A DNA stretch of 48,734 bases, from assembly GCA_943704415.1 (NCBI GenBank), contig CALSCO010001459.1, positions 1 to 48,734 on the forward strand. The letters run 5' to 3'. Shown piece after piece: positions 14,119 through 40,864 of this stretch (positions within the stretch are counted from its first letter, which is position 1; each line of letters starts with the position of its first letter). Made by a program: the position numbers and the translations under genes. This DNA is from Parvularia atlantis. Taxonomy: Eukaryota; Opisthokonta; Rotosphaerida. The notes beneath the pieces are model-generated. The model worked only from the letters and a program-made list of their open reading frames with translations, was not told the origin of the DNA and ran no database searches.

Positions 14119-15289
14119 TCACAACGCCGACGCGACCTCGCCGCGCCCCTCGACCGTGGCCATGTCGGCGAGCAGCTCGCGGCGCCACGCGTCGTACTCG
14201 GCGGCCGCTGCGGCCTCCTGTGCGGCCTCGAGCTCGTCTAGACGCCGCCGCCGCTTCGGCGCTTGCTCGATCAGCGGTGGCGGTGGCGCGTCGGCGGGCC
14301 GTGCGGCGCGTGCTCGTTGAGCTGGTGCGGCGGCAGACCGTGGCGGCGATGCGGGCGACGAGGGCGTTGACGGCAGCGCGACGCGCGGCTGCGATGCCGC
14401 CGCCGACGTTGGCTCATCCGAGTGCTCGTCGTCGTCTGGTGCTGCTGCTGCTGCTGCTGCTGCTCCGACGCTCTTGCTGCTGCGTGTCGCGCGTGCTGGT
14501 GCAGGCTGCGCGCCGCCCTTGGCCGCGGCCACGGCGTCGGCGCAGACGTCCTCGATCGCGGCGCAGACCCGGTCAAAGTGCGCCTCGCCCAGCATCGCGC
14601 CGTCCAGCAGGGCGCTCTTGCGCAGCTGCACCTTGAGCGCGCGGCACACGACCAAGAAGGCGGCGACGACGTGCACGGCCTCGGCGTCGGGCATGCGCTG
14701 GCGCACGCTGCGGGGCACGACGATCAGCAGCAGCAGCAGCAGCAGGCAGCAGCGAACGCACGTCGCCAGCAGCCGCTCGCACGGCGCGACGACGCCCACG
14801 CAGCCAAACTGCACAGCCAGCTGGCGCACGCTCACGTCGCGGCTGCGGCGCACGTCGATCAGCAGCCGTCGCCGCCGTCGAGGTGAGGTGAGGCGCGCAC
14901 CGCTCGTCCACGAGCACGGCGCGCAGGCGCTGCAGCGTCTCGCCGTAAACCTTCTTGGACACGGCCGAGGCGCGCACGGCGGCGGCGCGGTCGATCGTGC
15001 GCCCGAGGCTGCGCGTCGGCCGTGTGAGCGCCGACGGGGCGCGAGAGGCCCGGCGCGCACAGGCCGCACGCGAGGTCGACGCAGACGGTCGGGCGGCAGA
15101 TGCGCATCTGCCGTGCCGCGTGGCCGTCGGTCAGCGCAGACGGCAGCAGCAGCACGGCGCGCGCACCTGCTTCGGCAGCGTCGGGCAGCGCACGTCGGCG
15201 AGCCGCAGCAGCTCGGCCGCGCGGTCGCGCACGTCGGCTGCGTCGGCGCCAAGGCCCAGGCGGCGCATCGCATCGGCCACGTCGGCCAT
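14119..15289 (-). CDS. ORC6: Origin recognition complex subunit 6
   Basis: ATG at 15289, TGA at 14119, about 330 residues after splicing. The N-terminal TFIIB-like part is clear: MADVADAMRRLGLG, then AAELLRLADVRCPTLP, the VCVDLACGL segment, the SKKVYGETLQRL helix, RDVSVRQLAVQFGCVGVVAPCERLL, and the second cyclin-like fold ending KKSALLD-type helices (VCRALKVQLRKSALLDGAML). Order and spacing match human ORC6. The C-terminus has Ala and Ser/Pro-rich linkers, a basic KRRRR patch and a final acidic helix that in metazoan ORC6 contacts ORC3. ORC6 is needed to load MCM helicases at origins. Introns sit near 15107-15171, 15024-15078, 14839-14897 and 14717-14772. It is convergent with the TKL gene and lies 43 bp beyond the 3' end of the next kinase. 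Confidence 0.93.
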
Positions 15290-15332: not shown

Positions 15333-17243
<1,911 letters not shown>

Positions 17244-17331
17244 GCCCGGCGTGTGCTTGCCGATGATCTGTGCGTGCGTGTGGGAAAAACTGAGCGATCA
17301 CCTCGCGCACGGCGCGGGTGCAAAAGGGGAA

Positions 17332-17349
17332 GGGGGGGGGGGGGGGGGG
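17332..17349. repeat. G18 homopolymer, likely assembly junction
   Basis: Eighteen consecutive G residues, preceded by AAAAGGGGAA. Both divergent genes beside it lack their first exons exactly here: the RGS domain on the right starts without its first helix, and the kinase on the left has an acceptor site but no upstream exon. This looks like a collapsed gap or poly-G read artefact rather than a natural promoter. Confidence 0.75.
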
Positions 17350-20300
17350 CCTTGAAGGGCTCGATCATCTTTGCGCGCTACCTGCTCGACAAGGGGCTGA
17401 GCGACGACCCGGTCATGTTCTTCCTCGGCGCGCAAGAGTTCCACAACGAGGCCAAGCGCGCGACAAACGAAGAGCGCGCCGAGGCGGCCAAGATTCTCTA
17501 CGACGCGTTTCTGAAAAAGGTGCGCGAGGCGGCCGCTGCGGCTTTGGTGTGACCGACCGCCCGCGCCCGCAGCCAAAGAAGATCCGCAACCTCGGCCTGA
17601 GCGACCCGCAGATCGTGAGCGAGATCGCCGAGCACATCAACAAGCCGACCAACTGGATGTTTGACCGCGCGGCGTCCGACACGTTCACGCAGGTACGCAG
17701 GACCCGGCCGTGCCGTTGCATCTTAACCGCGCGTGCCGCGCGCAGATGGAGAAGAAGCACTTTGACGCGTTCCGCAAGAGCGCATTCTACAAGCAGGTGA
17801 CGGACAAGGTGCGTCGCGCACCTCGCGCGCGTCGCCGTGCGCGCCGACGTGCTACACAGTCGCTCTCGGCCAAGGTGACAATGCCTGCGACGCTGGTGTC
17901 GGCCATGGAGCAGCTCTCGCCGTCCGAGAAGGCGCGCGATGTGCGTGATGCCGTGGCGCGCGAGCGCGCGGCTGCTCGTTGACGACCTGTTTGTGCGTGC
18001 GCAGGAGGCGCAACAACAGCAGCAGAAGGCCGAGGTGGAGGCGCTGGTGGCCAGCTCGAGCAAGCAGGAGGGCGACGCACGCGTCAAGGCCGCCCCGCGC
18101 AAGGAAAAGGTGCGCGCACGCCCGACAGATGCACGCGCCGACCGCTGACACGCCACGCCCGCGCCCGGTCCGATAGAAGACAGTCAAGGGGGGCAAGTCC
18201 TTGCGCACGACCAAGGCCGTCCTTGTTACCGCGCCCGTCGTCGCCGACACGCTGGCGCCGCTGCCGAGCAGCCCCGTCTCGCCGCGCGTGGGCAAGGCAC
18301 CGCGTGTGGCCAAAGCGCTCAAGCGCGGCTCGTCACTTGGACCCTCGCCGCGGAGGACCGTCGAGCTGGCCGAGTGCGTGTCTCCCTCGCGCCTGCAATG
18401 CGTGTCTCACGACCGCCCGCGCAGGTCGCCGGCCGTGGCGCTGCCGCCGTCGCCCGCTGCCGCTTCGTCCGCAGCCGCAGCAGCCGCAGCAGCCGCGGAA
18501 CCGGGCAAGAAGAAAAAGTCAATCCGTGCACGAGGTACGTACACGCCCAGGCCATCATTCGTGCGCCCCCTTCCCGGCCAACGCGCACGCAAACGCCAGG
18601 CCAGAGCGAGCGCAAGGCCAAGGCCAAGGCCGGCGACGGCGCCGACGCCGAGGGCGTAACGCCCATCCGTCCCGCGGCCGGGCCGCTCAAGCGCTACGGC
18701 GGGCAGGGCCAGGCGTACTCGAAGCTGAAGGACGACTGGGTGCGCCACCGCCGCACCGCGTCTCGCGCGCACGTCGTCGCTGACAAGGCGGGGCGGCGCA
18801 GGTCGTGTTTGACAACAGCGAGCTTGAGGCGATGGCCGCGCGCGCGGGCAACGAGCTGACAGAACGGCGTCGGCTCACCGTCGCGACGCTCAACATCACG
18901 CGGGTGCGGCGCGCGCGAGGCGCGTGCGGGCCCCGGTGACTCAGCGGCGCCGCAGGAGGCGCAGAACCCGCAGGTGCGCTTCCAGGCCATCTGCGAGAGC
19001 CTGAAGAACCTCAAGGCGGACGTGATTATGCTCCAGGTGCGCCGCTGAGGCCGCGCACACCTGACCACTCGGGCGCTCAACGGCCGGCGATGTTTGCAGG
19101 AGGTCACGCCCGTGTTCCTCATCAGCCTGCGCGAGTGCCCGTGGGTGCGCGACGCGTTCTACATCACGGACGTCACGGGGTCGTCGTTCGTTGGCCGCAA
19201 GTACGGCCAGGTGTGTGCGCATGGCACCACCGCGCCTCCGTTGGGCTGGCCTAACCCCGCGTACACTCAGGTCGTGCTGTCGCGCGTGCCGTTTGTGGAA
19301 ATCATCTTCTCGCAGCTGCACTCGCGCAGCCAGGCGATGGCCGTGGTGGGCGTGATTGTGGTGCGCACGGCGGCTTGCGCGGCCCTGTGTGAGCGGCGTG
19401 CTCACGGTACAGTGCAGATCAACAGCCGCCGCGTCGGCTTTGCCAGCCTGGACCTTGACGAGCGCGAGCAGGACACGGCGCTGCGGTGCGCGCGCGGCCA
19501 GTCAGTTGGTGGCGCGGCGCGGCACTGACGTACCCGCGGGCGCAGGTCCGACCAGCTGCAGAGCGTGCTGACGCTCGTGAGCGAGCTCGAATGCGACGAC
19601 GTCTTCATCGGCGGCTCACTCGCCTCCGACGCCAAGTTTGACAGCCTTGTGCCGGTCGACCTGGCGCACGGCTGCGTCGATCTGTGGGAGCAGCACTTTG
19701 CCGGTGCGGGCCGGTGGCTGGGCGTGTGCGGCGCTGACGACCGTCGCACGAAGGCCTGATGGGCCAGGGCGGCGAGCCTGCAAACGGCCTGTCGACGCGG
19801 TCGATGCCGTCCAGCCTGCAGTCTGTCGAGGACTCGTCGAGCGTGTCTGCCGCCACGAGCACAAGCGTAAGCCCCGCTGTGCAGTTGCGCTCATGGTGGC
19901 ACTTACGGCAGTCTCGTCGCGTGCCAGACGAACGCGCACAAGCGCTCGGTCTCGTTCCAGACGCCCGACGACTCGCCCATGTCGGGCCGCGTCGGTCTTG
20001 CGAGTGCGTTGCGCTCGCGCTGGCTGTGCCGCCTCGCTCATGCCGCGCGATCGCAGGTCCCGTGTCGGACTTTACGCGCCGGGTGTCGCAGGCGCGTCGC
20101 AACCGCTCGTCGATGCGCCTGACCGAGGGCGCGGCGGGCGCCGCTGCCGGCGCAACAATACGGTCGTCGTCGAGCCATCCGTCGGACCTCGACAAGACCG
20201 CAGCTGGTGCCGTTGGTGCGGCACAGCCCGATCTCCTCGCGGTGCCGGGAACAGCCAGCGCGAACGACGCGGGTCTGCCGGCGTTCGGTGTGTCGCGCCG

Positions 20301-20757
20301 CGCGTTTGCGGCGCATGTCACTGACGCGGCCGGGGCGCAGGTTTCACGGTCAACACGCGCCTCAACCTGCTCGCGCGCGACTTGTTTCTGGTCCACCCGG
20401 TCCGCCGGCCCGACCGCCTCATTGTGCGCTCATACGAGAACTACTGGGGCCAGACGCGCAGCCTGCGGCTGTTTGCCAACGAGCAGGTCCGCATGCGCGC
20501 GCGCGCGCGACATTGGCAGGGCGCTGATCCTGTGTGCGCCGCTCACAGATCCCCGGCATGGCTGGTATCTTCCCGTCGGCGCACTTTGGCGTCGTGGCCG
20601 TCGTCGAGTGCGCGCCGCCGAGCGAGCCGCAGCGGTGCGCCGCGTGCTGCTGCTGCCGCATCGGTGTGCTGCGTTGCTGACGCGGCGCGTCGCCAGGACG
20701 GCCGCACCGACGAGCCCGCGCGGGGCCAAGAGCGGCAGCGGCTGCGTCGTGTCGTAA
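17350..20757 (+). CDS. RGS domain fused to TDP2-like EEP domain, CaaX end
   Basis: Exons joined in a single frame give about 830 residues, with the 5' end missing at the G18 run. An RGS domain comes first (SIIFARYLLDKGLSDDPVMF near 17360, IYD/ILYDAFLK, HFDAFRKSAFYKQV near 17757-17797). A Lys/Ser/Ala-rich linker follows. From about 18830 there is an EEP fold most like tyrosyl-DNA phosphodiesterase 2: TVATLNI, RFQAICESLKNLKADVIMLQ-EVTPVFL, TDVTGSS, VVLSRVPF. A Ser-rich insert of about 130 residues (19760-20300) interrupts it before the terminal strands (GFTVNTRLNLLARDLFL, PSAHFGVVAVVE). It ends in CVVS, a CaaX prenylation box. Several catalytic positions are replaced: the His of the SHLxS motif, the Asp of GDxN (here GGSL) and the Asp of SDH (here SAH). 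RGS domains speed GTP hydrolysis by G-alpha, so a prenylated G-protein regulator with a pseudoenzyme module is inferred. Confidence 0.82.
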
Positions 20758-20819: not shown

Positions 20820-21506
20820 CTACTTTTTGAGGCTCTTGCGCAGGGCGCGCGTGAGCTTGAGGCGCTTCTTGTACTTGTGCTTGTTCATCTTGAGCCGGCG
20901 CTTCTTGAGCACGCTCGTCATCCGCCACACGGGCGGCTGGGCCGTGAGGCTGCGCGTGCGTGCTCGCCATGAGCACGCGGCCCGACAAGGCGCACGCGCG
21001 TCGGCACACACCCCCGCAACGCCTCGTTCAGCTTGCGCAGCAGCTCCTGCGCGCCGCCCTCGACGACCTCGTCGCGCTGTTTGCGGCGCAGCGAGGCGTG
21101 AGCGCGCACGGCACGTGCTGCGCGCTCACGCCGACGCACCAGCGGCCACTGCACGAGGTGCGGCGGCTGGTGCGGCCGCGGCGGCATGAAGAGCGACACG
21201 TCGCTGTGCAGCAGCGCGTCGGCCGTGCGCGCCGCGGCGGCGGCGGCGGCGGCGGCCGCCGGGGCCGTCGCGGACGCGTCGCCGAGCAGGTGCCGCCGGT
21301 GCGCCGCGTCGAGGTCGCCCATCACACGCCGTAGCGCCGCGGCGCCGGGCGCGCTGATCGGGAATGCTGCCGCATGCACACACGGACGCCAACGTCAGGC
21401 GCCGCCGCCGCCGCGTGAGGAGCGCGTGAAGGGCCGCGCGCGCACCGTGGCTCGAGACGGCGCGCGCCGTCCACGGTGCCAGGCGTGCGATGCGCAGCCG
21501 GTGCAT
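20820..21506 (-). CDS. Mitochondrial small-subunit ribosomal protein mS38
   Basis: Exons 21446-21506, 21140-21366, 21012-21076 and 20820-20949 (complement) join to 160 residues. The N-terminus MHRLRIARLAPWTARAVSSH is an ideal mitochondrial presequence. The last 30 residues (TSVLKKRRLKMNKHKYKK then RLKLTRALRKSLKK) match the C-terminal domain of AURKAIP1/Cox24, now named mS38. This is a highly basic helix that binds small-subunit rRNA near the decoding site and helps mitochondrial mRNA translation. Human mS38 extends further after this block, whereas here the protein stops right after it, as in some fungi. The middle is an Ala-rich linker. It is convergent with the RGS gene (62 bp apart) and sits 51 bp downstream of the Slo channel gene. 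Confidence 0.9.
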
Positions 21507-31268: not shown

Positions 31269-34184
31269 TCACGAAGTCGACGGCGGCGCCGGCGCCGGCC
31301 TCTGCACGCTGGCGTCCTGTGGGGCTGTGTGTGGGGCGTGCGGGGCGTGAGGACGCGTGGGCGCGTGGCGCGATCGCACGCACAAGCACCGGCACCCGGG
31401 GCGGCTGCGCGCGGCGCACGCGGCTGCGATGGCGGGCCGGCCGGGGCGACGGCGACGGTGGGCGAGCCGGCCGGAACGGGTACGGCCATGGGCATCACGG
31501 GCATCGGCAGCGGGTACGGGATCTCTGTGTACACGCGCGCGTGCGCGCGCAAGGACCAGGCGGGCGACGTGAGTTCGGCGCGATCGAACGCGTGCACGCG
31601 CACGCACGCTGCGGGACAGCGTACGGCGACTGGTCCATGTAGTACGGCTGCGCATAATGCGGCACTGTGCCCGGGCGTGTGAGCACGGCCGGCTTATCGC
31701 GCACAAGCGCTGCCCGTCACGCACTCGCATAGTACGGCATCTGCATCGGCATCGGCACGACACGTGGCATCGGCTGCGGCCTGTATCCGGCCGGCATGGG
31801 CGCGCCGGCCATGTACTGCTGCTGCATGTACATCTCGGCCTCGGGCGTGAGCATCTGCGGCGCGAGTGTGTGCGTTGAGCGTGCGCGCGCGCAGGCGCGG
31901 CTGCGGCGCAGCACACCGCCTGCTGTGGGCCCTGGTGGATGAAGCGCGCCTGCGCACGCTCGCGTCAGGTGCAGTGCATGCAAGCACGCCGCAGGCGGCA
32001 GCGCACTGCCTGCTGCTGCTGCTGGTACGTGAGCGCCTCGATGTCGATCGCTGGCGGCGTCGTGTGCGCGGGTCAGCGACAAAGCAGAGCGGCGCGCGCA
32101 GACAAGCGTACACGGCTGCTTGCCCATCATCCGTGGCGACATCATCTGCTGCGGCACCGGCACCGGCACCGGGACCACGTACGGCGACGCAGGCAGCGCG
32201 GCCATGCCAGGGCTGCCCACGACCACGGGCACGGCCACGGGCGCAGCCGCCGGCGCCGACGGGACGTACGCCTTGGCTGAGACGTTGAACCTGATCGGCT
32301 CTGCGCGGGCGGGCCAGTGTGAGCGCGCTCGCTCTTGCCTCGACGTGGTGCCGCACTCTTTGCGGGTGCGGCCTCAGCCGGCTTGGCCACCGTCTCGTCG
32401 GCCGTGGCCGGGGCTGCAGCGGCGTTTGCGGGAGCGGCGGTGGCGGGCACATCGGCCTGCGGCAGCCTCTCAGTCAGCGCACGGTCAAACGGTGTCAAAG
32501 AGCGCGTGCCTTTGCGGCTGTGCTCGCGGTCGCGGCGGTCGCGGACTCGGCTGCGGTCGGCGAAGCGCTCGCAGTCGGAGACGCAGCAGCAACCGGCGAG
32601 GCGGCCGCGGCCGGCGAGCGTTGGCTCTTGGCCATGTTGGCGTTGAACTTGTGCGAGTCGCGCTCAAAGTCGTGCTTGAGCTCCAGCGCCTTGTTGCGGC
32701 GTGCATTCGACAGCTGCCGCCAGGCCCATCGTCAGCGACCGCTTGACGGTGCAGCGCGAGCGCACCTTGTCCTGCTCGCTCTTCACAAACTTGTCCATGG
32801 CCTGCTGCACGCTCTCGGTTGCCTGGCCCCGGCTGTCGGCCGCCTGGCCGTCGCAGCGCTGAGCACACCGACGCGCACACCGATGCGTACACACAGAACG
32901 CGCACCTTGCGTTGCTGCGGCGGTACGTACGCGTTCGCGGAGCGGCGCTGCACCGCCCCGAACGCCATCTCCTCGTCGGCGCCCTGTGCAGTGTCGGGCT
33001 CCTCGAAGCTCGCCTGCGCGCGGGCCGGCGTGCGCGCAGTCAGCAACGCGGTGGCACTGCGTGCGCGTCACAGACCTCGTCGCGGCCACGGCCGTTCGAC
33101 TTGTTGAGCATCTCCTGCGCGATCCGCGCGGCTTCGCGCTCGCGCTTGGCAAAGTCGGGCGCGCTCTTGTCGATCTGCGTGGTGTAGATCTGCACGTGCG
33201 CGCACACGCACACACGCGAGCGTCAGACTACGTCGCGATGGCCGTGTGTGCGCCCACGCGCCTCCTCGCTGAACGACGACACGACGTTGAACTTTTCGTT
33301 GTTGACCTGGAACTGGTCCCACTGTCGTCCGCCACGGCCACGCTCAAGCGAGAAATCCTCCAGCGCGCCCGCTGCGGTGCACAGCGGTGATCAGCAAGCA
33401 GTGCGCGGCGGCCTGCCCGGCTGCGCTACCATCGTCGTCCTTCCACGGCACTAGCTCGCGCTCGTTGTTGTCGCGGTTGCCGCTGATGGCCGTGTCAGTC
33501 TGCGCGCGCCATTGTGAGCCACCGACTGCGTGCTAGCGGGGGGTCGGCGCCCACCTTGAACGCCGCACTGCCCGCGGCGCCGCCGTGCTCGGGCGCGCCG
33601 TCGCTGTCGTGCAGCGCGACGCCGCGCGCGACCACGTGCACGAGGTTCTCGCCGGGCACGACGAGCGACTCGACGATGTCGTCGCGGCTGGCGGGCGCGC
33701 TCTCGCCCGGCTTGAGCAGGAACGCGCGGTTGAGTGTGACGCCAAAGCTGCAGCCGGCGCCGCGCGTGTCATGACCCTGTGTTGCGCCAGCGTGTGCGCA
33801 CCGCTCGTGCAGCGTCGCCGTCCCGAGCAGGCCGACGTAGACCTCGCCCGACGCCAGGTGCACCTCGACCTGGTGGCCGATCAGGCGCGCAAACAGGTAC
33901 AGCGCGCGCTCGTGCTGCTCGGCCGCGCCGGGCGTCTCGGCGGCGGCGCTGGCTGGCGAGGCGGCGCCGGCGGCGGCTGCTGTGGTGGGCCGCGGCGTCG
34001 TCGTCTGCGCGCTCTTGACGCTCACGGGGCTCATTGCCGCCACCGGTGAGGACGCGCCCGACGTCGGCGTGCCCGGCTTGGCGCCGACGCCGCCGACGCC
34101 GCCGACGCCGCTGCTGGCGCCGCCCGCCGGCGAGGCCGTGCGCGAACCGCGGCCACGGCCACTTGGAGCGCGGCGGGCCTCCAT
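31269..34184 (-). CDS. ATXN2: Ataxin-2/Pbp1-like RNA-binding protein
   Basis: ATG 34184, TGA 31269, about 10 exons and nearly 800 residues. After a Gly/Ala/Pro-rich N-terminus, an Lsm-like fold spans about 33900-33600 (RLIGHQVEVHLASGEVYVGLL; later IVESLVVPGENLVHVVARG). The LsmAD domain follows (LYTTQIDKSAPDFAKREREAA near 33190-33130, ending NAYVPPQQ near 32925), as in ataxin-2 and yeast Pbp1. A PAM2 motif, RFNVSAKAYVP, near 32290-32260 would bind the MLLE domain of poly(A)-binding protein. The C-terminal third is rich in Pro, Met, Tyr and Gln (for example MPYYAMPHYAQPYYMDQS) and is likely disordered and prone to condense. Ataxin-2 regulates poly(A) tail length, stress granules and translation. 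Its start codon is only 26 bp from that of the divergent gene at 34211. Confidence 0.93.
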
Positions 34185-34210
34185 GCGGTAAATTACACAA
34201 TCGCTGTCAA
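34185..34210. promoter_or_regulatory. 26-bp space between divergent start codons
   Basis: Only 26 bp, AT-richer than average (it contains GTAAATTACACAATCGC), separate the ATG of the ataxin-2 gene (minus) and the ATG at 34211 (plus). A shared bidirectional promoter must overlap the coding sequences, or the transcripts must overlap. Confidence 0.6.
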
Positions 34211-34614
34211 ATGCTGTCGGAACAAGATGTACAGGTGCTGTTCGAGGTCGACGTGCTGCGCGAGCTACAGGAGCCGACGTTCCTCGAGGCGCTGCGCGAG
34301 GTCGAGCGTGAGGCCGGGCGCGCGGCAAGGCGCGACGATGGGTCGGCCAGCTCGCGCGCACGACCGCCGCACCTGGCGGTCGCCGTAACTCGCGACGGTG
34401 CGTTTCGCTCCGGCTCCGCATCGACGCGATCACCCTGATGCGCGGCCGCACAGAGGCCCGCGCGCAGCTCAAAGAAGCAGCGAGATGCCTGCTACTCAAC
34501 CGTCGCGCGCTCGTGCAGGCGCTACGCGCCGAGCGCGAGGCCGCCAAGCTCGCCGCCGCGAACGTCGGGCGCAACAACGTCATCCAGGCACTGCGCGACA
34601 GCGGACTCGTTTGA
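34211..34614 (+). CDS. Small helical protein of unknown function
   Basis: Two exons, 34211-34397 and 34454-34614, give 115 residues. The intron is a standard one (GTGCGTTTC donor, CTGAT-like branch, ACAG acceptor). The protein is rich in Arg, Ala, Glu and Leu, with an N-terminal amphipathic helix (VDVLRELQEPTFLEALREVE) and a C-terminal helix (RRALVQALRAEREAAKLAA), ending NNVIQALRDSGLV. There is no signal peptide or membrane segment. The amphipathic pattern suggests a small subunit of a complex, but I recognise no family. The intact splice frame and the normal stop support it being real. Confidence 0.6.
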
Positions 34615-34700
34615 CACCGCCCCCCTCCCCCACCCCCACACACACCACCCACACACACACCGCACAATCTCAATCGATCGCTCAGTGTCGTGCACAGAAT

Positions 34701-37176: not shown

Positions 37177-40100
37177 TCACACCGCGGCCGTTGTGCCGTT
37201 GATCGTCACGTCGCTCGGCAGGCCCTGGCGCTCGAGCGCCGACAGCACGCGCGACATGAGCTCACGCTCCTTGACGCGCTCGGCCTCGCGCTCGGCCTCC
37301 AACTGGCGTTGCTTCTCCCACATCTCGCGGACCTCCTTGTCGCGCTGCGCGATCTGCCGGCACTCCTCGTCGAGCAGGCGGCGCGTCTCGTTCAGAGACG
37401 CACGCAGCTGCCGCGCCTCCTCGACCGTCTCGCGCGAGCCGCCGCAGCACATGGCCAGATACCGGCTGACTGTGCCGCCACCGTTCTCCATCGTCGCCAG
37501 CTCCGACATCTTCATGTCTTCCTGCGGCTCGTACGCGGCCGGGCCGATGAAGCTGAGCGCCACGGGCAGGAACTGCGCAGCGCGCGAGGCGTGAGACGTT
37601 GAGAGGCGCGCAAGGCGGTCACAGGCGCACCAGCATCGCGTGGAATACACTGAGCACGCAGACGAGGAAAAACTGCTTGAAGAAGACGATGAAAACGTAC
37701 GACTGGCTGACCGAAAGCAGCATGATCGCGAGGAAGGTCGAGAGCGCGCCGTTGATGACGCTGTTGCCGATGTCGGCGATGGCGGCGATGACGCGCTCGT
37801 CGCGCGTGCCCTGCTTGAGCTGCGCGCGGCGCCAGGCGCGGGTCGGCACGCGACTTGGCAGCGCGCGAGCGCACACGCACCATAAAGCAGTGCCCGATGT
37901 GCGCAACGTAGTCCACCGAGAGGCCCACGGCGAGCACGAGGTTGACGGCCGACACCGAGTCGAGCGCAACGTCCCAGAACGTCATCAGGCCGATGATGTC
38001 GAGGATGACGAGCGCGACGCACAGCTCGACCTGCACCGCCCAGCCGCGTCAGCGCACGGCGCGCACGCAGCGCCGCAAGGGCACGCACCAGCAGCGCGAC
38101 GATCGGCTGCGCGATCAGCAGCAGGATGATCACAAAGACAATGATGAGCGACGACAGCAGGCTGCTGTAGATCGAGCTCTCGACCACGGCGTTCTGCTCC
38201 CACGTCAGATAGAGGTACGTCCACGGGAAGGCCTCGATCTCAAGCTCGGCGCACTTGTCGCGCAGGGCGTACATGGCCTGGACCTGTGGCGACGCGGGAC
38301 GTAAGGCCACGAGCGCACACATACGTGGCGGAGCGCACCTCCTCGGGCGCGCTCGACAGCGGCTCGTACGACCAGCGGATGCGCGTCGACAAAATGGCGC
38401 CGTTTGCGCCGGGCCCGAACACGACGTCGTTCGAGTACAACTGGCCCTCGGGTGTCACAAGGAAGGCGCGCAGCCACTCGTTGAACACGGTCGCGTTGGG
38501 CGGGCGGCCGTTGCTGTCGAGCTGGTCCTGCGCGCTCGCCGTGCGTGAGTACCGCCCTCCCGGCGGCGCAACGGCCTGCAGTGTGCACCTTATACTCGCT
38601 GGTGCCGAGCCACGCGATGTACTCGTCGAACCACGAGCGGTAGAAGGCCGAGTTGGTCGGGTACATGAACGCGGTGCCGTTGAGGTCGGCGGTCAGGCCG
38701 GCAAGGAGCGCCTGCACGTCCGGGTTGCCGTACTGCACTGTGCCCGTCGTGACGATGTCGACCTGCCGCGCGGGTGTCTCGTTAGTAACCGCGCTCGCCC
38801 CGCCAGCGCACGGCGCACCGGGTCGCCCAGGTCGACAAACAGGTTTGCGTTCACGTCCTGCGTCACCGACACATACGAGCCGTCCGGCACGAAGCTCGAC
38901 AGGGCGTCCTGCGCGGCGTGCATGCGTGAGCCCAGCCGACGTACGCCTCACGCACGCGCGCGCGACGCACCTTGATCACGACCTGCGTCACGCCCCAGAT
39001 CGACACGCCGGCGAGCGCGAGCGTGGCCAGAATGATGAGCAGGCGCATGGGCCGCTTGAGCACAAACGGCGCCCAGTACACCTCGAGGAAGTAGGGCACG
39101 TAGCCGCTGGATGACGACGGGCGTGAGCGTGAGCGTGAGCGCGCCGCATCCGCGCAGCAGCGCACCGCTTCGTCGGTGAGTCGATCTTCTCGTACGGGCG
39201 GCGGATGCAGCAGCAGCAGTCGAGGCGGCCGTTGGCGATGCGGTGCTCATCGAGCACGAGCGCGCTGCAGAACCAAGTGATCTGGAAAAAATACAGGCCG
39301 ACGGCGGCCAGCGCGGTGAAGACGCAAAACGACTGCAGCGCGGGCAGGGGCGACGTCGCGCCGATGAGAAACGCGAAAAAGTTGGTCAGGCTGCGGCGCG
39401 GCCCCGCGTGAGGCGTCGCTCTTGTTGGTAGCGTCAGCACGATGCGCGCACCTCGTCACGGTGATGGAAACGCCCGCGTGCGCCATGGCCTCGGCCGTGC
39501 GCATCTCGATCGACTCGTGCGGGTCCGTCTGCTGGTACGCGTTGAAGATGATAAACACGTTGTCAACGCCGACCGCGAGCAGCAGGAACGGCAGGACCGA
39601 GTGCACGTAGTTGTACTTGTAGCCGAACGCGCTGGCCAGGCCAAAGCTGAAGGCGATGGCGAAGCCGATGCTGACGATGCCCATGAGCGAGAGCACGACG
39701 CGCGAGCGCAGAAACGAGAATTTGCCGAGGACGACGGCGGTGTAGACAATGATGAGCGCGAAGCCCGCGAGCAGGATGACGACGTCGCTTGTCACGGCCT
39801 CGTTGAACTCGTCCGTGTACGAGCGCTCGGCCTCGGGGTAGACGTAGAGCTGGTCGTTCTCGGCCCGCGTGAGGCTGATGAACGCGAGCTCCCACGTCTC
39901 CGCCGGCAGATCCACGACCGAGCCCCCGAGGACCTGGCCACGGTTGTCGAGCAGATACACGGTCTTGAGCGCGGTCGCGCCGATGATCTGCGTGCGCGCG
40001 CAGCTCGTCGGCATCGCGAGCACGCGCGTGCGTGAGCGTACCTCGCCGCTGTCGTCAAAGTCGATGCCGCCGAGCTGGCGCAGCACCGCGGTCGGGTCCT

Positions 40101-40864
40101 GCCTGTTGCGGGCGTTGATCGTCGCGAGTGGGTCCGCGTCGGCCTCCAGCGCCGCGAGGTCAAAGTTCCAGAGCGAGAGGATGCTGTCGATGTCGCACTC
40201 GGTCGTGCCCGGGCGGAACACGCACAGGTTCTGGAGGTACCACCACTCTGGCGCGTCGCCCTCGCCGCCGCCGTCGTCCGCGCCCTCTTCCTCAACGGGT
40301 ACGGTCACGTTGAGCGCAGCGATCTCGAGGTGCAGGTTCATGGCCGCGACGAGCGCCACCGACGTGAGCGCGTTGTCGCCCTCGCGTGACTCAACGATCA
40401 CGTACGACACGCGCGGCTCATTGGTGTACAGCGCGCCAACTGCGGCGCCGCGTGAGCGTCAACAAGCACGCAGGGGCGGGCGGCGCACCCAAGCCGGCCT
40501 GCTCGAGCGCGACCGAGTCCTGCGGGATCCACAGCTTGTCGCCGCGGTTCTCGATCTCAAACTGGACGCAGCCGATCGCGGCCAGGCCGGCCACGAGCGC
40601 GGCGCAGGTCATGACGCCGGCCGGGTTGCGCGCGCAGAAGCGGCCGATGTGCCAGAAGACGTAGAAGAAGAACGCGTTGCAGGCGTTGCTGATCGCGCGC
40701 AGGCCGCTGTTTACACGATCGTAGCAGCCTGGGTCCGCCTCCGCCTCCTGCTGCTGCTGCTTTTCCTTGAGCGCCTCGCCACTGCCGCCGCCGCTGCTGC
40801 TCGTGCTGCTCGTGCGCGACGCGCCCAGCAGCGCCTCGACTGAGCCCTCTGCCGTGCTGGCCAT
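37177..40864 (-). CDS. Patched-related RND family membrane protein
   Basis: The ATG at 40864 (MASTAEGSVEALLG) is the most conservative start; the frame is open upstream with further ATGs at 40927 and 41077. The stop is at 37177, giving about 1,000 residues. Order: Ser-rich cytosolic lead; first TM (MTCAALVAGLAAIGCVQF near 40600); a large lumenal/extracellular loop; a five-helix sterol-sensing-like block at 39820-39190 with the helix-4 motif AVGVDNVFIIFNAY near 39565; a second TM1-like helix near 39030; and a second loop. The second membrane block (38150-37620) carries AVGLSVDYVAHIGHCFM. These paired GxxxD-type motifs are the proton/sodium-relay hallmark of RND proteins (Patched, NPC1, PTCHD). 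Unusually, the C-terminus is a charged coiled coil (ETVEEARQLRASLNETRRLL...) ending DVTINGTTAAV. Transport of sterol or lipid is inferred from the family only. Confidence 0.88.

Follow-up and report, generated by a model that had tools for sequence, protein, structure and literature searches.

A probable single gene joining an RGS domain, a TDP2-like EEP domain with replaced catalytic residues and a C-terminal CaaX box in Parvularia atlantis

To our knowledge, no other gene combines an RGS domain, an EEP domain and a CaaX box. INPP5A and INPP5E, inositol 5-phosphatases of the EEP superfamily, end in a CaaX box like the protein described here and are not known to carry an RGS domain, and Axin, as far as we know, contains no EEP domain. 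The R4 RGS proteins RGS2 and RGS4 share the RGS fold with the present protein, in which several Gα contact residues are replaced and the EEP domain and the CaaX end are additional. The nearest architecture among those compared is that of GRK1 and GRK7 (RGS, kinase and CaaX); in both, an RGS-type domain is combined with an enzyme domain, and the C-terminus carries a CaaX box for prenylation (CAAS in GRK1; PMC3307776). Their kinase domain is inserted in a loop of the RGS domain, whereas here the EEP domain follows the RGS domain, separated from it by a linker. A Pfam search of our 767-residue model found no kinase domain. In TDP2, a UBA domain stands where this protein has its RGS domain (as given in part of PMC11369425). 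In the Axin RGS domain, which binds APC, the position of RGS4 Asn128 is changed to Gln (excerpt of PMC3434218), whereas the present protein probably retains the Asn and shows changes at other positions.

A relative with both RGS and EEP domains was found neither by the protein searches nor in the literature searched for RGS with TDP2 or exonuclease-phosphatase. The 8000 candidates sharing most words with the whole protein were scored and none reached E <= 10; 883 candidates for the EEP part and 334 for the RGS part gave none with E <= 1. The EEP part matched no NCBIfam family, and none of its seven pattern matches in viral contigs was confirmed. These missing relatives are weak evidence, because the search detects only candidates that have identical words in common with the query, and proteins from spliced eukaryotic genes are perhaps under-represented. 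When the model was compared with its own genome at E <= 1, 17 of the 18 matches were its own exons and the other (E 0.073) lay on contig C402.

The locus lies in contig C360 of an assembly of 616 contigs (16.25 Mb); the window, i.e. the whole stretch of 48,734 nucleotides analysed, has a GC content of 60-74% per kb and is eukaryotic, as judged from its introns and gene content. The RGS-EEP gene is on the plus strand and is flanked by two minus-strand genes:

15849-17297, minus strand: protein kinase gene with short introns (Pfam Pkinase, E 4.7e-46; exons joined by eye)
20820-21125, minus strand: gene with a COX24_C domain (COX24_C, E 2.1e-12)

The kinase gene and the RGS-EEP gene are divergent and their starts are near each other, while the COX24_C gene is convergent with the RGS-EEP gene, with 62 nt between the stops.

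The gene model was built by hand (20 exons, 17355-20757, plus strand) and then checked for frame and phases. It forms a single frame of 767 residues with CVVS at its end and a TAA stop at 20755-20757. The first-pass annotation had described one stop-free frame running from the RGS domain through a Lys/Ser/Ala linker and the EEP fold to CVVS, and this phase-consistent model bears it out. All 19 introns (50-67 nt) begin with GT and end with AG, and their phases are compatible. The accompanying claim that every junction uses GTGCG...AG with matching phases held for the AG ends and the phases, but the GTGCG donor was present in only 13 introns; the others have GTACG (two), GTGTG (two), GTAAG (one) and GTCCG (one). 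The acceptor is CAG in 17 introns, TAG in one and AAG in one. Motifs resembling a branch site (CTNAY or TNAY) were present in 18 of the 19 introns; in 13 introns the motif lies 17-26 nt from the end, and in the other five it is nearer or further.

The training set for codon usage comprised 1072 codons, taken from stretches that surround family matches at other places in the genome and were chosen by eye; two of the 13 stretches contain one stop codon each. By this codon usage, the frame used had the highest score of the six in 18 of the 20 exons (all except exons 7 and 20), a figure that is biased upward because the exons had been selected for openness. In addition, a synonymous codon score, given in bits per codon, was calculated, which is independent of amino-acid content. 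This second test is noisy on short pieces, since five of the 19 introns, including introns 6, 8 and 19, gave exon-like scores of 0.23-0.41 when read as coding. The longest open chain that allows introns (2789 nt) exceeded those of all 40 Markov simulations, the best of which reached 2494 nt; as the simulations come this close, openness by itself is weak evidence in such GC-rich DNA. The RGS alignment spans introns 1 and 2 in register and the EEP alignments likewise span introns within the EEP domain, and these junctions are therefore independently supported. The borders of exons 15 and 16 were set partly by frame and sequence character, which was our own choice.

Both domains that had been named in the first-pass annotation were above the curated Pfam cut-offs in HMM searches with RGS and EEP profiles. 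The RGS domain is encoded by three exons:

17355-17519, plus strand: exon 1 (5' incomplete), first part of the RGS domain (Pfam RGS from profile position 13; model)
17573-17692, plus strand: exon 2, middle of the RGS domain, with the probable RGS4 Asn128 equivalent in KIRNLGLSD (model, Pfam, alignments)
17746-17808, plus strand: exon 3, last part of the RGS domain, MEKKHFDAFRKSAFYKQ (model, Pfam, alignments)

The domain alone scored 54.8 bits with Pfam RGS (cut-off 23.9; E 1.5e-14; profile positions 13-116 of 117) and 50.3 bits within the whole model, also above the curated cut-off. Its best matches among solved structures were RGS2 and RGS4. Leu159, Asp163, Ser164 and Arg167 of RGS4, which are Gα contact residues, correspond here to Gln, Lys, His and Ala, respectively. 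RGS4 Asn88 is replaced by Pro, while the changes of Glu87 to Asp and of Ile114 to Leu are conservative. The equivalent of RGS4 Asn128 depends on the alignment: the RGS2 and MAFFT alignments both place Asn at this position, whereas the RGS4 alignment places Gly there. A placement of Asn128 in the motif SRNM, by which it would have been lost, was rejected, as counting from Glu87/Asn88 of RGS4 puts Asn128 in the motif VNLD. By these alignments the catalytic Asn128 equivalent is probably kept. Mutation of E87, N88, I114 and N128 of RGS4 cuts GAP activity by more than 90%, as stated in an excerpt of PMC3434218.

The genome encodes possible targets of such a domain: Gα matches above the cut-off were found on contigs C144 and C201, and a third, weak match below it on C57. 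Twelve RGS matches were listed genome-wide, and the RGS-EEP gene is missing from the list because its exons are short. Eight of these 12 loci were retrieved, and the Glu-Asn pair is kept in all five that could be read (L001, L002, L003, L006 and L007). We consider it somewhat unlikely that the protein is an active canonical RGS GAP on the organism's Gα, its EEP part being a passive domain with a regulatory role. The Asn at the Asn128 position in two alignments and the conservative changes at Glu87 and Ile114 agree with such an activity, but the Gly in the RGS4 alignment, the Pro in place of Asn88, the four replaced contact residues and the Glu-Asn pair retained by the other readable RGS matches argue against it. 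The earlier assumption that the RGS domain acts on Gα is thus plausible in view of the probable Asn128 equivalent, but it is weakened by the replacements at Asn88, Leu159, Asp163, Ser164 and Arg167, and a GAP activity of the RGS part is uncertain. Binding of some partner by the RGS part is plausible, and this partner is perhaps not Gα, because several of the RGS4 contact residues are replaced.

The EEP domain extends over exons 9-19 (18802-20634) and contains a large loop that is not found in TDP2:

18802-18903, 18956-19036 and 19100-19210, plus strand: exons 9-11, N-terminal part of the EEP domain (Pfam Exo_endo_phos; TDP2 alignments)
19271-19360, 19418-19485 and 19546-19703, plus strand: exons 12-14, N-terminal part of the EEP domain (Pfam Exo_endo_phos; TDP2 alignments)
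19754-19866, 19928-20003 and 20057-20287, plus strand: exons 15-17, Ser/Ala-rich loop inside the EEP domain (model)
20341-20486 and 20549-20634, plus strand: exons 18-19, C-terminal part of the EEP domain, FPSAHFGV (TDP2 chain 4gz2_A with FPSDHWGL, E 0.092)

The motifs VATLNI, LQEV, SLDLD and GGSLASD are found in exons 9-14, and the inserted loop comprises about 140 residues (531-668). With Pfam Exo_endo_phos (PF03372) the domain alone scored 30.2 bits (cut-off 24.5; E 4.8e-7; profile positions 14-132 of 225) and 27.4 bits within the whole model, above the cut-off, the match being confined to the N-terminal half. The C-terminal half is supported by some alignments with TDP2 chains at E values of about 0.09-0.6. 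Of the 13 solved-structure matches of the EEP part, 11 were TDP2 chains, the remaining two (weak) were Polymerase delta-interacting protein 2, and none was a 5-phosphatase. The designation of the domain as TDP2-like therefore stands, with TDP2 as the closest, weak relatives of solved structure (best E 0.0035).

The replaced catalytic residues, which the first-pass annotation had not mentioned, set the domain apart from TDP2. The TDP2 motifs GDTNLRD, SHL and FPSDHWGL read here GGSLASD, SLD and FPSAHFGV. Asp262, Asn264 (an active-site residue of TDP2) and Asp350 are thus replaced by Gly, Leu and Ala, and the EEP motifs GDxN and SDH appear as GGSL and SAH, while the equivalents of Asn120 (LNI), Glu152 (LQEV) and His351 (SAHFG) are shared with TDP2. 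In the same genome, 12 other EEP matches were found at nine places; a six-frame motif scan of these places, which used no gene models, detected GDxN at eight (not seen on contig C460) and SDH at all nine. The magnesium site of TDP2 is made up of N120, E152, D262 and H351 (excerpt of PMC11369425), so that three of its four residues are kept here and D262 is Gly. In human TDP2, D262N and D350N each abolish activity, as reported in part of PMC10407441. These replacements suggest that the EEP part is probably a pseudoenzyme. That the EEP part still hydrolyses a phosphoester by means of a rearranged active site, with the RGS-CaaX part targeting the enzyme to a membrane, appears highly improbable: the equivalents of Asn120, Glu152 and His351 are in its favour, but Gly, Leu and Ala occupy the positions of Asp262, Asn264 and Asp350, and either of the single TDP2 substitutions is sufficient to kill the activity (PMC10407441, in part). 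As three of the four residues of the Mg site are kept, binding of a metal or ligand, or an altered chemistry, is possible. The proposal that the EEP domain is a module for phosphoinositide or protein binding gains from the replaced catalytic residues, which favour a binding role, while phosphoinositide is a putative ligand.

Whether the two domains belong to one gene depends on the linker, which is rich in Lys, Ser and Ala and is covered by exons 4-8 (17860-18739):

17860-17940 and 18005-18109, plus strand: exons 4-5, start of the linker (model; 0.25 and 0.28 bits per codon, above the other five frames)
18177-18373 and 18425-18534, plus strand: exons 6-7, Ser/Pro/Ala/Lys linker with the weakest coding evidence (0.02 and -0.17 bits per codon)
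18600-18739, plus strand: exon 8, linker in the EEP frame, without an in-frame ATG (GC3 0.96; 0.34 bits per codon)

The synonymous score was 0.33 bits per codon for the RGS part, 0.33 and 0.35 for the EEP parts and 0.14 for the whole linker, which was still the highest of the six frames. No in-frame Met is present between residues 132 and 338 of the model. Because exon 8 scores as coding in the EEP frame and there is no Met between residues 132 and 338, one gene is likelier than two, and we infer a single transcript with good though not full confidence, which was lowered because introns also score like exons. The alternative, which we regard as unlikely, is that there are two genes, or one locus with two promoters, with an RGS protein ending and an EEP-CaaX protein starting within the linker. 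Some of the alternative readings considered in this text could hold at the same time. Exons 6 and 7 are the weakest coding parts of the model, and introns 6 and 8 reach 0.41 and 0.37 bits per codon when treated as coding. Retention of intron 6, whose 51 nt are divisible by three, would lead to a stop at 18657-18659 and retention of intron 8 to one at 18857-18859. Moreover, Met338 immediately precedes the EEP fold, an ATG inside intron 6 (18398-18400) starts an unspliced frame that runs into exon 8, and the local gene spacing can equal an intron length, as shown by the 62 nt to the COX24-type gene. However, a separate EEP gene would begin within coding-like sequence, since exon 8 lies upstream of Met338 and scores as coding in the EEP frame. 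At introns 6, 7 and 8 the donors are GT[GA]CG, the acceptors are CAG and the phases match; both versions considered (a start at Met338 or at 18398-18400) would share sequence with the first gene in the same orientation, and the unspliced frame 18149-18856 matched no Pfam family.

The C-terminus of the single-gene model is determined by the splicing of the last intron:

20635-20696, plus strand: intron 19, whose retention would give a protein ending in CAACCCCRIGVLRC and not in CVVS (sequence)
20697-20757, plus strand: exon 20, C-terminal CVVS (CaaX) and TAA stop (model)

In intron 19 the donor is GTGCGC and the acceptor CCAG, and CTGAC lies 20 nt upstream of the intron end. The CVVS end is favoured because the donor is of the usual kind and both this CTGAC and a CAG acceptor are present. 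The CVVS end reported previously is present in the spliced model and, provided that intron 19 is spliced, it has the Cys-aliphatic-aliphatic-X form of a CaaX box. The tail produced by intron 19 retention, CAACCCCRIGVLRC, is Cys-rich, and another membrane anchor is conceivable there. Prenyltransferase alpha repeats (PPTA) above the cut-off were found in the genome on contigs C255 and C186, and matches to PF00432, a family broader than protein prenyltransferases, on C171 and C75.

Taken at about an even chance, the best reading of the locus is one gene for a prenyl-anchored adaptor with an RGS fold and a pseudo-EEP module. The protein would be anchored on membranes by a prenyl group on its C-terminal CVVS, and its N-terminal RGS fold would meet a Gα subunit or another RGS-binding partner. 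The long, basic and Ser-rich linker would join it to the TDP2-like EEP fold which, with key catalytic residues lost, may serve as a binding module or scaffold and not as a phosphodiesterase. More tentatively, the protein would stand for a class of RGS proteins that recruited a catalytically dead EEP fold of the DNA-repair type, next to the RGS fold, as a sensor or scaffold on prenyl-anchored membranes; this fold would link G-protein signalling with a ligand, be it a nucleotide, a phosphoinositide or a protein. If real, the gene would represent a second route, besides the GRKs, by which an RGS fold has come to be combined with a prenyl anchor and a domain derived from an enzyme. It would also count as a candidate for a TDP2-like EEP pseudoenzyme and offer a direct test case for dead EEP folds as membrane ligand sensors.

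The 5' end of the gene adjoins a homopolymer tract:

17332-17349, no strand assigned: run of 18 G directly before the first recognised RGS residues (sequence)

Upstream, the RGS frame stays open through this tract as far as 16506 and contains an ATG at 17037; the open stretch upstream of exon 1 is antisense to exons of the kinase gene. A start in the frame 16506-17549 (ATG 17037) was rejected, the RGS match again beginning at profile position 13 (single-exon E 0.16). A start across the G tract in the upstream frame MICACVWEKLSDH... was joined in two ways, which gave RGS scores of 54.2 and 55.2 bits as compared with 54.8 bits, and was likewise discarded as unsupported. The 5' part of the gene was lost, misassembled or missed by recognition. 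A decaying gene, in which the frame still reads on while the broken 5' end and the lost active-site residues reflect relaxed selection, is in our opinion a poor candidate. It would account for the RGS start not found at the G tract and for the replaced active-site residues, but all 20 exons are open, the frame used outscores the other five on codon usage in 18 of them, and the splice signals look intact. Furthermore, a faulty assembly may explain the missing 5' part, because matches to 16 G occur frequently in these contigs (1113 + 967 matches, which count overlaps and not distinct runs); G runs such as that at 17332-17349 may mark such faults. A run of ten C is present at the very end of the contig (48725-48734).

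Three further minus-strand frames of the window had recognisable domains:

14122-15288, minus strand: second cyclin-like domain of ORC6 (E 5.7e-11)
33498-34700, minus strand: Ataxin-2 SM domain (E 2.1e-12)
39250-40458, minus strand: sterol-sensing domain (Sterol-sensing, E 4.8e-23; Patched, E 3e-22)
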